Source: Solirubrobacter pauli
GTDB lineage: Bacteria; Actinomycetota; Thermoleophilia; Solirubrobacterales; Solirubrobacteraceae
Assembly (NCBI RefSeq): GCF_003633755.1
Contig: NZ_RBIL01000001.1
Coordinates: 3,519,426-3,583,425, forward strand
Direction: 5' to 3'
Length of the DNA: 64,000 nt
The notes under the pieces are model-generated. The model was given only the letters and a program-made list of their open reading frames with translations, did not search any database and was not told the origin of the DNA. The translations under genes were made by a program, and so were the position numbers. The stretch's first letter is position 1, and each line of letters opens with the position of its first letter. Below, one piece after another: positions 46,120-52,742 of this stretch.

Positions 46120-46500
46120 ATGGAGCCCCACACGCTCGAGCTGACGTATCCGCCCGAGCCCACATCCGTCGCCCGAGCGCGCACCGAGCTGTGCGAGGCG
46201 ATGGCGCCGGACCTGCAGGACGAAGAGGTCGAGACGCTGCGGCTGCTGGTGTCCGAGCTGGTCACCAACGCCGTCCGCCACGGCGACGGCGGCGACCCGG
46301 TCGAGGTCCACGCGCACTGGAACGCGGAGGTGCGCATCGAGGTCGTCGACCACGGCCGCGGCTTCGAGCCGACCCCGCGCTACGGCCGCAGCGACGAGCC
46401 CGGCGGCTTCGGCCTGTTCCTCGTCGGTCGCCTGGCTGACCAATGGGGCGTCGAGACCACCGACGGCACCACCGTCTGGTTCGTGCTCCAGCGTCACTGA
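46120..46500 (+). CDS. RsbW-like ATP-binding anti-sigma kinase
   Basis: A 126-residue single-domain GHKL ATPase. The N-box is LVSELVTNAVRHGDGGD, G1 is VVDHGRGFEP and the glycine loop GGFGLFLVGRLADQWG, which match actinobacterial anti-sigma or serine kinases. It is followed by a STAS gene in the same frame with the stop TGA at 46498-46500 between them. The pair should form a kinase/antagonist switch. The start ATG at 46120 is clean. Confidence 0.9.
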   Translation: MEPHTLELTYPPEPTSVARARTELCEAMAPDLQDEEVETLRLLVSELVTNAVRHGDGGDPVEVHAHWNAEVRIEVVDHGRGFEPTPRYGRSDEPGGFGLFLVGRLADQWGVETTDGTTVWFVLQRH

Positions 46501-46527
46501 GCATCCGGTGCGGTAGCGTCCTCCTCT

Positions 46528-46857
46528 ACGAGCACGCACGGCGGCCCAACCAGCTGGAAGGTCACGGAGGTCTCCGACCTGCGGGGTGATCGCACGCTCT
46601 TCGTCCACGGCGAGCTGGACATCGCGACCGCACCGGAGCTCGTCGACCTGCTCGCGCGCCTGCGCCACCACCGCCACGCGGTCGTGCTGGACCTCGCCGA
46701 AGTGACGTTCATGGACTCGACCGGCCTCACGACGCTGATGGACGCGCACCGGGCGGCCGAGGAGGACGGCTGGTCGTTCACGGTCCGGCGCGCCTCGCCG
46801 GCGGTGCGCCGCGTGTTCGAGCTCGCGAACGTGACCGGCGTCCTCGACGACGGGTAG
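46528..46857 (+). CDS. STAS anti-anti-sigma protein, probable ACG start
   Basis: A 109-residue STAS-domain protein that standard gene calling would miss because the frame has no ATG, GTG or TTG before the domain. The domain is complete: FVHGELDIATAPELVDLL, VVLDLAEVTFMDSTGLTTL (phosphorylatable Ser in DSTG) and FTVRRASPAVRRVFELA. The ACG at 46528 lies exactly eight bases after tagcgt (46514-46519), the spacing used by neighbours with normal starts, and would give a normal N-terminus STHGGPTSWKVTEVSDL. It should be phosphorylated by the adjoining kinase and freed by a phosphatase. Confidence 0.75.
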   Translation, partial: TSTHGGPTSWKVTEVSDLRGDRTLFVHGELDIATAPELVDLLARLRHHRHAVVLDLAEVTFMDSTGLTTLMDAHRAAEEDGWSFTVRRASPAVRRVFELANVTGVLDDG

Positions 46858-46868
46858 GCTCGGCCACG

Positions 46869-47999
46869 GTGGAGAGCCACACCGTTCCCCAGCAGCCGAC
46901 GGTCAGCATCGACGCGCTCGAGACGTTCGTCGAGCTGCTGGCCCGCGTCGACGCCGACCCCGCCACCGACGACTTCTACAGCCGCCTGTGCGAGGCCACG
47001 TGCCGCCTGGCGGACATGGACCGCGCCGTCATCTTCCGCTACGACGGCGCCCGCCGCCGCGTCCGCGCCGCCGGCGCCTACGGCATCGACCTCGACGTGT
47101 TCGCCGACGCCCAGGTGACGGTCGAGACCGTCCAGGTCGCCCGCGAGTCGCTCGTTGAGGACCGCGTGATCGAGATCAGCTCCTCGATGGCCGAGGACGT
47201 CCCCGAGGAGTACCGCGGGCTGATCACCGCCTCCAACACGCTGGTCTGCACGCCGATGGCCGCCGCCGGCCGCTGGCTGGGTGTGATCCTGTCCGACCGC
47301 AAGCCGGACCGTCCCCCGCTCAGCGACTCCGAGCGCTACGTCCTGTGGACGCTCGGCAAGACCGCCGCGCTCGCCGCTTACGCGCGCCAGGCGACGAACA
47401 AGCAGGCCCAGGCGCGCCAGCTGCAGGAGCGGATGGACCTCGCGCGCGAGGTGCACGAGTCGGTCATCCAGCGGCTGTTCGGCATCCAGCTCGTCTTCAG
47501 CTCCCAGGCGGAGCTGTCCGTCGCCGCCCGTCAGCGGATCGCCGCGGAGCTGCAGGCCGCCCTGCACGACCTGCGGCGGGCGCTGCAGCGCCCGCTCGCG
47601 CGCCAGGCGCCGGAGACGAACACGACGCTGCTCGAGGAGGTCGAGCGCCTGCGCCGCGAGCACCGCGACCTGCACCTCGTGCTCACCCCGGACAGCGAAG
47701 CGGTGACGATCCCGCCGTCGATCGAGCCGCTCGCCCAGTCCGTGCTGGCCGAGGCGGTCCGCAACGCGCACAAGCACGCCAAGCCGAGCAGGATCGAGGT
47801 CAGCCTGGCGATCAAGGACGACGAGACGCTCGTGCTCGACGTCGTCAACGACGGCCTGCGCGGCCGCGCGCGTCAGAGCGGCATGGGGCTCAAGCTCGCC
47901 GCCCTCGAGGCGCTGCAGTTCGGGGGCATCGTGGAGTTCGGCGAGCGCGATCCGGGTTGGTGGCGCGTCAGACTGGCGGTCCCTCTTGACCGGGCCTGA
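46869..47999 (+). CDS. GAF sensor histidine kinase
   Basis: A 376-residue soluble kinase. A GAF domain (about 30-175, AVIFRYDGARRRVRAAGAYG) precedes the H-box LAREVHESVIQRLFG with His196. The ATPase part has EAVRNAHKHAKPSR, DVVNDGLRGRARQSGMGLKL. The GTG at 46869 lies eight bases after taggct, which overlaps the STAS stop. It overlaps the response regulator by 14 bases, forming a signalling unit with the partner-switch pair upstream. Confidence 0.9.
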   Translation: MESHTVPQQPTVSIDALETFVELLARVDADPATDDFYSRLCEATCRLADMDRAVIFRYDGARRRVRAAGAYGIDLDVFADAQVTVETVQVARESLVEDRVIEISSSMAEDVPEEYRGLITASNTLVCTPMAAAGRWLGVILSDRKPDRPPLSDSERYVLWTLGKTAALAAYARQATNKQAQARQLQERMDLAREVHESVIQRLFGIQLVFSSQAELSVAARQRIAAELQAALHDLRRALQRPLARQAPETNTTLLEEVERLRREHRDLHLVLTPDSEAVTIPPSIEPLAQSVLAEAVRNAHKHAKPSRIEVSLAIKDDETLVLDVVNDGLRGRARQSGMGLKLAALEALQFGGIVEFGERDPGWWRVRLAVPLDRA

Positions 48000-48680: not shown

Positions 48681-49742
48681 GTGGGACACACAACGGCTCT
48701 GCGCGAGGGTGCACGTGTGAGCAACGCCACCCTTTCCCCTGAGCTGCTGCAAGTCGCGCGCGACGCGGCGCGCAACGGGAGGCGCCCCGCACCCCCGCGG
48801 ACCGCGACGATCCTCGGGCTCGGCCACTACCTCCCCAGCGAGGTCGTCCCCAACGCGGACATCGCGGAGCGCATCGGCGTCGACGACCACTGGATCATCA
48901 AGCGCACCGGCATCAAGGCCCGCCGTCGCGCCGCCGCGAACGAGGGCACCACGGACCTCGCCGTGAAGGCCGCCCGCCGCGCGCTGCAGGACTCGGGCAC
49001 CAAGCCCGGGGACCTCGACTACGTGATCGTCGCGACCATGAGCGCCGACGAGATCACCCCGAACTGCGCGCCGCTCGTGGCGCATGCGCTCGGCGCCGAC
49101 CGCGCCGCCGCGTTCGACATCGGCGCGGCCTGCACGGGCTTCCTCGCGGGCCTGTCCCAGTCCGCCGCGCTGATCGAGGTCGGCCGCGCGGAGCGCATCC
49201 TGCTGGTCGGCGCGGAGAAGCTCACGCGCATCACCGACTTCGACGACAAGAAGACCGGCATGCTGTTCGGCGACGGTGCGGGCGCGGTCGTGCTCGGCCC
49301 GTCCGAGTCCGGTGCCGGCATCGGCCCGATCGACCTGCTCGCCGACGGCGGGCTGGGCGACACGATCCTCGCCACGCACGAGGACCCGTACATCCGCATG
49401 GACGGGATCTCGACGTTCAAGATCGCGGTCAAGAACCTGTCCGAGTCGACGGTCTACGCGGTCGCGGCCGCGGGCCTCGAGCTCGGCGACATCGACCTGT
49501 TCGTCTATCACCAGGCCAACAGCCGCATCCTCAAGGCGGTCGGCGAGCGCCTGGAGCTGGACGCCTCGAAGGTCGCGGACTACATCGCCCAGCTGGGCAA
49601 CACGTCCGCCGCCTCGATTCCCCTCACGCTGTCGCTCTCGCGTGAGGACGGGCGCCTGCGCCCGGGCCAGAAGATCCTGGTCGGCGCGATCGGCGCGGGC
49701 TTCACCTGGGGCGCCGGCGTGATGGAGTGGACCCTGCGATGA
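48681..49742 (+). CDS. fabH: Beta-ketoacyl-ACP synthase III
   Basis: A 353-residue initiating condensing enzyme of type II fatty acid synthesis. The Cys-His-Asn triad is Cys151 (GAACTGFLAG), His277 (VYHQANSRIL) and Asn307 (QLGNTSAAS). It joins an acyl-CoA starter to malonyl-ACP. The first 40 residues are an extension not needed in E. coli FabH. The GTG at 48681 lies ten bases after taggcc; a GTG at 48717 after gagggtg is an alternative. The stop overlaps fabG (ATGA), and the operon continues through acyl reductase. Confidence 0.9.
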   Translation: MGHTTALREGARVSNATLSPELLQVARDAARNGRRPAPPRTATILGLGHYLPSEVVPNADIAERIGVDDHWIIKRTGIKARRRAAANEGTTDLAVKAARRALQDSGTKPGDLDYVIVATMSADEITPNCAPLVAHALGADRAAAFDIGAACTGFLAGLSQSAALIEVGRAERILLVGAEKLTRITDFDDKKTGMLFGDGAGAVVLGPSESGAGIGPIDLLADGGLGDTILATHEDPYIRMDGISTFKIAVKNLSESTVYAVAAAGLELGDIDLFVYHQANSRILKAVGERLELDASKVADYIAQLGNTSAASIPLTLSLSREDGRLRPGQKILVGAIGAGFTWGAGVMEWTLR

Positions 49743-50479
49743 GCACGCGTCCCGACAACGCCGTCGCGCTCGTCACCGGCGCGTCCAAGGGCATCGGCGC
49801 GGCGATCGCGCAGAGCCTCGCCGCCGACGGCTGGGCCGTCGCGGTCAACTACCGCTCCGGCGAGGCCGCGGCCAACGAGGTCGTCGCGAAGATCGAGGCC
49901 GCCGGCGGCAAGGCGAAGGCGATCGGCGCCGACGTCACGACCGCCGACACCAAGGCCCTGCTCGAGCAGGTCACCGGCGAGCTCGGCGGCCCCGTCCTCG
50001 CGCTCGTCAACAACGCGGGCGTCGCGCGCGACAACATCGCGCTGCAGCTCACCGACGAGGACTGGGACGTCGTCATCGGCACCAACCTCTCCCCGGCCTT
50101 CAAGCTCACCCGCGACGTGCTGCGCTCGATGATCAAGGCGCGCTACGGCCGCGTGGTCAACATCGCGTCGGTCGTCGGCCCTCGGGCCAACGCCGGGCAG
50201 AGTAACTACGCCGCGGCCAAGGCGGGCCTGATCGGCATGACCAAGACGATCGCCGCGGAGGTCGCGCGGCGAGGAGTCACCGTCAACGCGGTCGCACCTG
50301 GTTTCATCGCCACCGACATGACCGCCGACCTGGCGACGGACGAGATCGTCAAGGCGATCCCGGCCCGCCGGCAAGGCACGCCGGAGGAGGTGGCCGCCGC
50401 CGTGCGGTTCCTCGCCTCCGACGACGCCGGCTATGTCACCGGCACCACGCTCTATGTCGACGGCGGAATGTCCGCTTAA
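49739..50479 (+). CDS. fabG: 3-oxoacyl-ACP reductase
   Basis: A 246-residue NADPH-dependent SDR reducing 3-oxoacyl-ACP. The cofactor motif TGASKGIG lies near residues 13-20, NNAG near 89, and the active site is Tyr157 and Lys161 (YAAAK) with the upstream Ser in NIASVVG. The ATG at 49739 overlaps the fabH stop by four bases; the in-frame GTG at 49727 would intrude into fabH. VAPGFIATDM near 187-196 is typical FabG. Its operon position leaves little doubt. Confidence 0.92.
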   Translation: MSTRPDNAVALVTGASKGIGAAIAQSLAADGWAVAVNYRSGEAAANEVVAKIEAAGGKAKAIGADVTTADTKALLEQVTGELGGPVLALVNNAGVARDNIALQLTDEDWDVVIGTNLSPAFKLTRDVLRSMIKARYGRVVNIASVVGPRANAGQSNYAAAKAGLIGMTKTIAAEVARRGVTVNAVAPGFIATDMTADLATDEIVKAIPARRQGTPEEVAAAVRFLASDDAGYVTGTTLYVDGGMSA

Positions 50480-50500
50480 CCTCAGAAGGAGACCAACCTC

Positions 50501-50749
50501 ATGGCCAACGCCATCACCGAAGAAGCCGTTCAGAAGACCGTCTACGAGGCGCTGCCGCAGTTCGGCGTCGACGAGGGCGACATCACGCGCGAGGCTACTT
50601 TCGAGGACCTCGACGTGGACTCGCTGGACCTCGCCGAGCTCTCGCAGATCATCGAGGACGAGTACGGCGTCGCGCTCAAGGGCGACGACGTGGGCAAGAT
50701 CAAGACCGTCGGCGACGCGATTGACCTGGTGGTGCAGAAGGGCGCATGA
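50501..50749 (+). CDS. acpP: Acyl carrier protein
   Basis: An 82-residue ACP with the phosphopantetheine site Ser41 in DVDSLDLAEL. It carries the growing acyl chain between the enzymes of the operon. It has a strong Shine-Dalgarno sequence (aaggag, just before accaacctc and the ATG), in line with the high ACP level cells need; most other genes here lack such a site. Its stop overlaps the fabF start (ATGA). Confidence 0.95.
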   Translation: MANAITEEAVQKTVYEALPQFGVDEGDITREATFEDLDVDSLDLAELSQIIEDEYGVALKGDDVGKIKTVGDAIDLVVQKGA

Positions 50750-51945
50750 GCCGCGAGGTCGTCATCACCGGCGTCGGCGCCGTCACCCCGCTGGGTGTCG
50801 GCGCGCGCACGCTGCATGAGCGCTGGAGCGCCGGCGTCGTCGGCATCGCCGACGGCAAGGGCGTCGCATCCGAGTTCGAGCCGACGGAGCACCTGTCCGT
50901 CAAGGAAGTCCGCCGCGCGGATCGCTTCACGCAGTTCGCGCTGGTCGCGGGCGACGAGGCGCTGGCCGAGGCGGGCTGGAGCGACGAGCTGCCCTACGAG
51001 GGCGAGCGCATCGCTTCGGTCCTGGGCACCGGCATCGGCGGCATCGGGACGCTCGAGCGCGGCAAGGAGCTGCTGATCGAGAGCGGGCCGAAGAAGGTCC
51101 CGCCGCTGTCCGTGCCGCTCATGATGAGCAACGCCGCCGCCGCGGCCGTCTCCATGCGCTTCAAGCTGCTCGGCCCGTGCCACGGCATCGTCTCCGCCTG
51201 CTCGGGCGGCGCGGACGCCATCGGCGCCGCGAAGATGATGATCGAGTCCGGCCTGGTCGACGCCGTCGTGACCGGCGGCTCGGAGGCGGCGCTGACGCCG
51301 CTCTCGAACGCCGCGTTCGGCGCGCTCGACGCGCTCTCCACCAAGGGCATCTCGCGTCCGTTCGACAAGGACCGCGACGGCTTCGTCATGGGCGAGGGCG
51401 GCGCGATCCTCGTGCTCGAGACGCGTGAGAACGCGGAGAAGCGCGGGGCGAAGATCCTCGGCACGCTGAAGGGCTACGGCGCTTCGGCCGACGCCTACCA
51501 CCTGACCGCGCCGGACAAGGACGGCGGCGGGCCCTCGCGGGCGATGAAGGCGGCGATGAAGGACGCGGGCATCACGCCCGACGACATCGTCTACGTCAAC
51601 GCCCACGGCACGTCGACCGGCCTCAACGACGCGGCGGAGACCAAGGCGCTCAAGCTGGCCCTCGGCGACCGCGCGCACGAGATCCCGATCTCGTCGCTGA
51701 AGTCGTCGATCGGGCACCTGCTCGGCGCCGCCGGCGCCGTGGAGGCGGTGGCGACGATCCTCGCGTTGCGCGACCGGATCGCTCCGCCGACGCTCGGGCT
51801 CGAGCACCCCGACGAGGGCCTCGACCTCGACTACGTGCCGCACCAGGCCAAGCCGCTCGACATCGGCGACAAGCGCGCGATCGCGATCTCGTCGTCGTTC
51901 GGCTTCGGTGGCCACAACGCCGTTCTGGCCCTGGAGGCCGCATGA
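50746..51945 (+). CDS. fabF: Beta-ketoacyl-ACP synthase II
   Basis: A 399-residue elongating condensing enzyme. The Cys-His-His triad is Cys152 (VSACSGGAD), His287 (NAHGTSTGLND) and His324 (SSIGHLLGAAG). FabF condenses acyl-ACP with malonyl-ACP in elongation. The starts and stops overlap neighbours by four bases on both sides. Length and motifs match FabF rather than FabB. Confidence 0.93.
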   Translation: MSREVVITGVGAVTPLGVGARTLHERWSAGVVGIADGKGVASEFEPTEHLSVKEVRRADRFTQFALVAGDEALAEAGWSDELPYEGERIASVLGTGIGGIGTLERGKELLIESGPKKVPPLSVPLMMSNAAAAAVSMRFKLLGPCHGIVSACSGGADAIGAAKMMIESGLVDAVVTGGSEAALTPLSNAAFGALDALSTKGISRPFDKDRDGFVMGEGGAILVLETRENAEKRGAKILGTLKGYGASADAYHLTAPDKDGGGPSRAMKAAMKDAGITPDDIVYVNAHGTSTGLNDAAETKALKLALGDRAHEIPISSLKSSIGHLLGAAGAVEAVATILALRDRIAPPTLGLEHPDEGLDLDYVPHQAKPLDIGDKRAIAISSSFGFGGHNAVLALEAA

Positions 51946-52742
51946 GCCTGCAAGGCAAGAAGCTCCTGATCACGGGCGTCATCAACCGCGAGTCGATCGC
52001 GTTCGAGGTCGCCCGTCAGGCGCAGGCCGCCGGTGCGGAGGTCGTCCTCACCGGCTTCGGCCGTGCCAAGCGCATGACCGAGCGCTCCGCCAACCGGCTG
52101 GACCCCGTGCCGGACGTCCTCGAGCTCGACGTCAACAAGCCCGAGGACATCGAAGCGGTCGCGGCTGACCTCAAGGAGCGCTGGGGGCGCGTCGACGGCG
52201 TGCTCCACGCGATCGCGTTCGCCCCGGAGGACGCGCTCGGCGGCAACTTCCTCAACACGCCGCCGGAGAGCGCGACCACCGCGTTCCAGACGTCGGCGTA
52301 CTCGCTCAAGGCCCTGACGGTGGGGCTGAGCGACCTGTTCCCGGAGGAGGGCGCGGCGATCGTCGGGCTCGACTTCGACGCGCAGGTCGCCTGGCCGGTC
52401 TACGACTGGATGGGCGTCGCGAAGGCCGCGCTGGAGGCGACCGCGCGCTACCTGGCGCGGGACCTCGGTCCCCGTCGCGTGCGCGTGAACCTGGTGAGCG
52501 CCGGGCCGCTGGCCACGCTCGCCGCGCGCGGCATCCCCGGCTTCTCCGACCTGGCGTCCGCCTGGGAGAAGCAGGCCCCGCTGCCGTGGGACGTCGAGGA
52601 TCCCGCGCCCGTCGCGGAGACGATCAACTTCCTGCTCAGCGACGCGTCCCGCGCGATCACGGCGGAGATCATCCACGTCGACGGCGGCTTCCACGCGATG
52701 GGCACGCAGATCGTGCCGTTGCGTGAGGAGGTCGAGGCGTGA
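51942..52742 (+). CDS. fabI: Enoyl-ACP reductase
   Basis: A 266-residue NADH-dependent enoyl-ACP reductase of the FabI/InhA type. LLITGVINRESIAFEVARQ is the cofactor motif, and the active site is Tyr154 with Lys161 (YDWMGVAKAAL), the seven-residue spacing of InhA (158/165). It completes each elongation round. Of the FAS-II cycle only the dehydratase is missing from the operon. The ATG overlaps the fabF stop, and the stop overlaps the acyl-reductase gene. Confidence 0.93.
   Translation: MSLQGKKLLITGVINRESIAFEVARQAQAAGAEVVLTGFGRAKRMTERSANRLDPVPDVLELDVNKPEDIEAVAADLKERWGRVDGVLHAIAFAPEDALGGNFLNTPPESATTAFQTSAYSLKALTVGLSDLFPEEGAAIVGLDFDAQVAWPVYDWMGVAKAALEATARYLARDLGPRRVRVNLVSAGPLATLAARGIPGFSDLASAWEKQAPLPWDVEDPAPVAETINFLLSDASRAITAEIIHVDGGFHAMGTQIVPLREEVEA

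Follow-up and report, generated by a model that had tools for sequence, protein, structure and literature searches.

Where does translation begin in a conserved gene that offers none of the usual start codons? This question is raised by a STAS domain gene in a 64,000-nucleotide stretch of Solirubrobacter pauli (contig NZ_RBIL01000001.1, positions 3,519,426 to 3,583,425), here called the window, to which coordinates in the 46-kilobase range refer; the studied genome (G000) measures 7.1 megabases (Mb). The RsbV/SpoIIAA-like gene runs on the + strand from 46528 to 46857 (109 codons plus the stop codon TAG at 46855-46857). As stated in the first-pass annotation, its frame is open back to the TGA of the preceding kinase gene, that is from 46501, and contains no ATG, GTG or TTG before the domain core, the earliest being GTG 46684 within it. 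The letters and coordinates likewise bear out that the hexamer TAGCGT at 46514-46519 is followed after exactly eight bases (CCTCCTCT) by ACG at 46528-46530. An ACG-initiated leaderless mRNA, a recent ATG-to-ACG mutation and read-through of the TGA had been offered as explanations; taken together, these three readings are partly supported by our analysis. With a probability of about 0.82, judged from sequence, the STAS gene is a genuine gene subject to selection and would be translated from a leaderless mRNA beginning at ACG 46528, as one member of a small class of genes with non-canonical starts.

The homologous loci were aligned at codon 46528, as had been suggested, in seven Solirubrobacter genomes, which count as six species because the aligned part does not differ between S. 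deserti and CPCC 204708. All orthologues have an intact frame, and their proteins are 74-83% identical. The codons ACG-AGC are common to the window species, S. phytolaccae, S. taibaiensis, S. deserti and S. soli; in all five, TAGCGT or TAGCTT stands 7-8 bases before the ACG, and the frame between the upstream stop and the ACG is free of ATG, GTG and TTG. The sixth species, S. pratensis, carries an ATG three codons nearer to the domain, 10 bases after TAGGCT. At the amino-acid level, the eight codons that precede the ACG are 23% identical, the eight that follow it 60%. The box GGTGCGGTAGCGTCC is kept as DNA among the species, yet in differing frames, because one-base insertions and deletions flank it. 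The locus is therefore promoter-like up to the ACG and protein-like from the ACG on. Outside the genus, no STAS orthologue was detected at E<=1e-20 among 146 genomes of the family, and no kinase-STAS pair at E<=1e-30 among 232 genomes of the order.

The distance between box and ACG has a counterpart throughout the genome. We counted codons 6-8 bases after TANNNT at coding onsets in 1.6 Mb of the genome, taking the other spacings as expectation, and found ATG 108 times against 6.3 expected and GTG 66 times against 6.6 expected; no other triplet was enriched at this spacing. By a looser count, TANNNT precedes ATG or GTG by 6-8 bases in 326 of 2175 genes (15%). The leaderless layout is thus common in this genome, and the ACG of the STAS gene lies at exactly this spacing. 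Since the ACG and its box are shared by five species and TANNNT at 6-8 bases marks starts genome-wide, the pattern goes beyond chance. Conservation and genome-wide layout together suggest that TAGCGT is the -10 element of the STAS promoter, and they support an ACG-initiated leaderless mRNA.

The STAS gene is not alone in lacking a usual start codon. A scan of 2175 genes with a simple codon-usage model, covering 2.4 Mb or about one third of the genome, returned 27 genes without ATG, GTG or TTG at their onset. Among the in-frame codons located 6-8 bases past a TANNNT box in these genes, 8 of 11 are ATC or ACG, compared with 9 of 173 at other spacings (Fisher p=1.2e-7). That the window STAS gene, a strict member, belongs to this conserved ATC/ACG class is an addition to the earlier interpretation. 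The products of the other seven members were named by eye from sequence, Pfam having been run on the STAS neighbourhood only; C1 and C2 denote contigs of the genome. A cytidylate-kinase-like gene (C1:2279957, - strand) has ACG, which is kept in 7/7 sister genomes, with ATG near the start of paralogues. The remaining six have ATC: a MarR regulator (C1:3364574, -; kept in 6/6), a CBS-DHH protein (C1:3153984, -; 6/7), an ArsR regulator (C2:1336493, -; 5/6, with TTG in the same position in S. pratensis), a TetR regulator (near C1:2711540, +; 5/5 close orthologues), a YmdB-like gene (C1:2409813, -; 6/7, with GTG in S. soli) and a second STAS gene (C1:4092796, -; 7/7 Solirubrobacter genomes). Four other genera also possess the second STAS gene (45-57% identity), and there the same alignment column holds ATC in 8 of 10 genomes and GTG and ATG in one each; this gene offers the strongest test case for the class. 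For the CBS-DHH and YmdB-like genes, the start regions in other genera vary too much for an ATC rule to be recognised.

Not every set is equally clean. In some relatives the MarR, cytidylate-kinase-like, TetR, YmdB-like and second STAS genes have an in-frame ATG, GTG or TTG further upstream, at times right after a box, so that an ATC or ACG start is less certain for those genes in those species. The window STAS gene, the CBS-DHH gene and the ArsR gene form the cleanest sets, for which all species examined that bear ATC or ACG lack a usual start. Five of the eight class genes seem to encode regulators, and the box of both the TetR and the ArsR gene overlaps a palindrome. In the ArsR gene (C2:1336224-1336530, - strand) the box overlaps the inverted repeat aggcaagt...acttgcct; such an overlap is expected of a repressor controlling its own mRNA and would fit one that is leaderless and ATC-started. 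The scan also returned further possible members, namely a Lrp-like and a PucR-like case with ATC and cases with CTG. In the window itself, a long frame on the - strand, from 55088 down to 53760, has no ATG, GTG or TTG at its onset; TACCTT lies 8 bases before CTG 55088, a candidate start, and the first usual codon is a GTG 33 codons in.

Several observations weigh against initiation at the ACG. Over all genes in the 1.6 Mb, ACG after boxes is not enriched (5 against 7.7 expected), and four of these five occurrences merely precede an ATG or GTG; general use of ACG after boxes is thus not seen, and ACG use must be rare. Moreover, ACG is the commonest threonine codon in this genome (2858 of 4984), for which reason its conservation by itself is weak evidence. 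Work on mycobacteria found leaderless translation to start at ATG and GTG only, ATC having served as a presumed negative control (PMC4633059), and with ACG in five species the STAS gene would depart from that rule. The case for an ACG start is made by its position, by the lack of any alternative start and by the gene class. A last adverse observation is that in 7/7 genomes the STAS frame is in phase with that of the kinase. The phase is kept though the gap between kinase stop and proposed start varies (27, 18 and 24 bases), flanking +1 and -1 indels compensating one another; by a rough count of independent gaps, the chance of this is a few per cent.

This shared phase makes read-through of the kinase stop codon, which would yield a kinase-STAS fusion and leave the STAS gene without a start of its own, the main rival. 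We nevertheless regard it as unlikely. At 23% identity the linker is not conserved as protein; it carries instead a conserved DNA box in shifted frames, and this argues against translation through the TGA. In addition, the kinase gene of S. soli ends in TAG rather than TGA, S. pratensis possesses an ATG, and other members of the class have no visibly coding frame upstream. Read-through, as proposed in the first-pass annotation, is accordingly disfavoured, with the in-phase frames left standing in its favour; the kept phase could be due to chance or be the trace of an old fusion.

Alternatively, ribosomes that terminate at the kinase stop codon, 27 bases upstream, could re-initiate at the ACG on a longer mRNA, leadered or polycistronic. 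The short gap to that stop in all species would suit such a mechanism, but the conserved box stands at the exact genome-wide leaderless spacing, no Shine-Dalgarno sequence precedes the ACG, and the other class members are not directly preceded by an in-frame gene; we therefore consider re-initiation improbable. Even less credit is given to a start at CTG 46579, which lies inside the domain in the STAS frame and has, in the window, a GGAGG 8 bases before it that could act as a Shine-Dalgarno sequence. The resulting shorter protein would lose strand 1, placed at residues 11-16 by a structure model (mean predicted local distance difference test score, pLDDT, 85.8), and the model thereby indicates a start upstream of CTG 46579. 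The codons preceding the CTG are also conserved as protein (WKVTEV). As the codon is CTC in both S. soli and S. pratensis, and given the predicted strand loss, we reject this start. Finally, a recent mutation, a sequencing error or a pseudogene would be suggested by the single base that separates ACG from ATG, but ACG in five species refutes a private mutation or error, and the intact frame and conserved protein leave a negligible chance for any of the three.

On the basis of initiation at the ACG, we propose the following model. TAGCGT, as the -10 element, would set RNA polymerase such that the mRNA begins at or within 1-2 bases of ACG 46528. A 70S ribosome carrying the ordinary formylmethionine (fMet) initiator tRNA, with anticodon CAU, would then begin translation at this ACG on the 5' end, tolerating a mismatch at the middle position of the codon. 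The other members of the class may follow the same mode, their mRNAs beginning at or beside the A of ACG or ATC and translation starting on this 5'-terminal codon. The expected effect is a low, throttled translation, which might suit regulators. A search of the whole genome with the initiator-tRNA anticodon-arm pattern GGGYTNNNAACCCGNAGG identified one initiator-type tRNA, that with CAU; a second match, with TAC, was not called a tRNA by ARAGORN, and no variant initiator tRNA with a GAU or CGU anticodon was found with this pattern. Since the one initiator-type tRNA identified has the anticodon CAU, a special tRNA is not indicated.

The product of the window gene consists of a single STAS domain (Pfam STAS_2, E=9.6e-20; STAS, E=1.3e-14), and its closest matches in the PDB are SpoIIAA chains (1TH8, E=3e-9). 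It contains the segment FMDSTGL, invariant across the six species, which includes the motif D-S-[ST]-G-L with its putatively phosphorylatable serine. By these sequence features it is predicted to be an RsbV/SpoIIAA-type anti-anti-sigma protein. Its partner is probably the kinase encoded just upstream, the gene neighbourhood suggesting that the two may engage in partner switching. This RsbW-like anti-sigma kinase gene (46120..46500, + strand; HATPase_c_2, PF13581, E=8.9e-19) starts with ATG, ends with TGA at 46498-46500 and adjoins the STAS gene on its upstream side in 7/7 genomes. The arrangement resembles the RsbV/RsbW and SpoIIAA/SpoIIAB pairs, which likewise consist of adjacent HATPase_c_2 kinase and STAS genes with the DSTGL motif. 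In contrast to these pairs, no sigma factor gene is seen directly beside this one, a sensor kinase and a LuxR-type regulator follow, and the STAS gene has an ACG at its proposed start.

Downstream, Pfam matches give the order GAF-domain sensor histidine kinase, then LuxR-type response regulator. The sensor kinase gene (46869..47999, + strand; GAF_3, E=2.9e-7; HATPase_c and HisKA_3 matches weak and below the cut-off) starts with GTG and is itself leaderless-like. As had been noticed at first pass, TAGGCT precedes GTG 46869 by eight bases; this putative -10 element (46855..46860, + strand) overlaps the STAS stop codon, and the hexamer TAGGCT is kept at this distance from the GTG in the window species, S. 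phytolaccae, S. taibaiensis and S. deserti. Farther along the window, positions 48681-52742 hold what by eye resembles a type II fatty acid synthesis cluster, in whose translations FabH, FabG, acyl carrier protein, FabF and FabI-like frames follow one another. Elsewhere in the genome, a formate-dehydrogenase-like frame (C1:3379438, + strand) continues on either side of a TGA that precedes HSSSVPGLGTSFGRGA; this TGA is probably a selenocysteine site, and a tRNA-SeC gene is present near C1:2.6 Mb.

Leaderless genes have been described in Deinococcus-Thermus, where a -10 motif adjoins the open reading frame (PMC12340547), and in mycobacteria (PMC4633059). The Solirubrobacter genes share with both a TANNNT-like box about 6-8 bases before the start, the lack of a Shine-Dalgarno sequence and a layout that is common in the genome; they differ in the ACG or ATC that would serve as start codon. 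No report of ACG or AUC starts on leaderless bacterial mRNAs was found in the open-access literature. Because the mycobacterial work found only ATG and GTG, the Solirubrobacter starts would, if true, form a notable exception.

Leaderless mRNAs are commonly regarded as offering the simplest route into translation. Near-cognate starts occur in other settings: infC of E. coli begins with AUU, and non-canonical starts were reportedly found by proteomics in Deinococcus deserti in a 2010 study by Baudet. These cases resemble the present one in having a conserved start other than ATG, GTG or TTG, for which a low output is proposed here; infC-type starts have a leader and a Shine-Dalgarno sequence, whereas in Solirubrobacter the codon would lie at the 5' end of the mRNA. 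We consider it quite likely that, in Solirubrobacter and related genera, the ordinary initiator tRNA starts translation of a conserved group of leaderless mRNAs at an ACG or AUC on their 5' end, and that some regulators are thereby held at low output. If so, the restriction of leaderless mRNAs to AUG and GUG would not be general, and the ribosomes or initiation factors of these bacteria would accept start codons believed to be unusable on leaderless mRNAs. The genes would constitute a defined set in which start-codon checking can be studied without a Shine-Dalgarno sequence, and gene finders restricted to ATG, GTG and TTG would miss or truncate real genes, regulators included, in this bacterial family. 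Some of its regulators would then use an ACG or AUC start as a built-in low-output setting.
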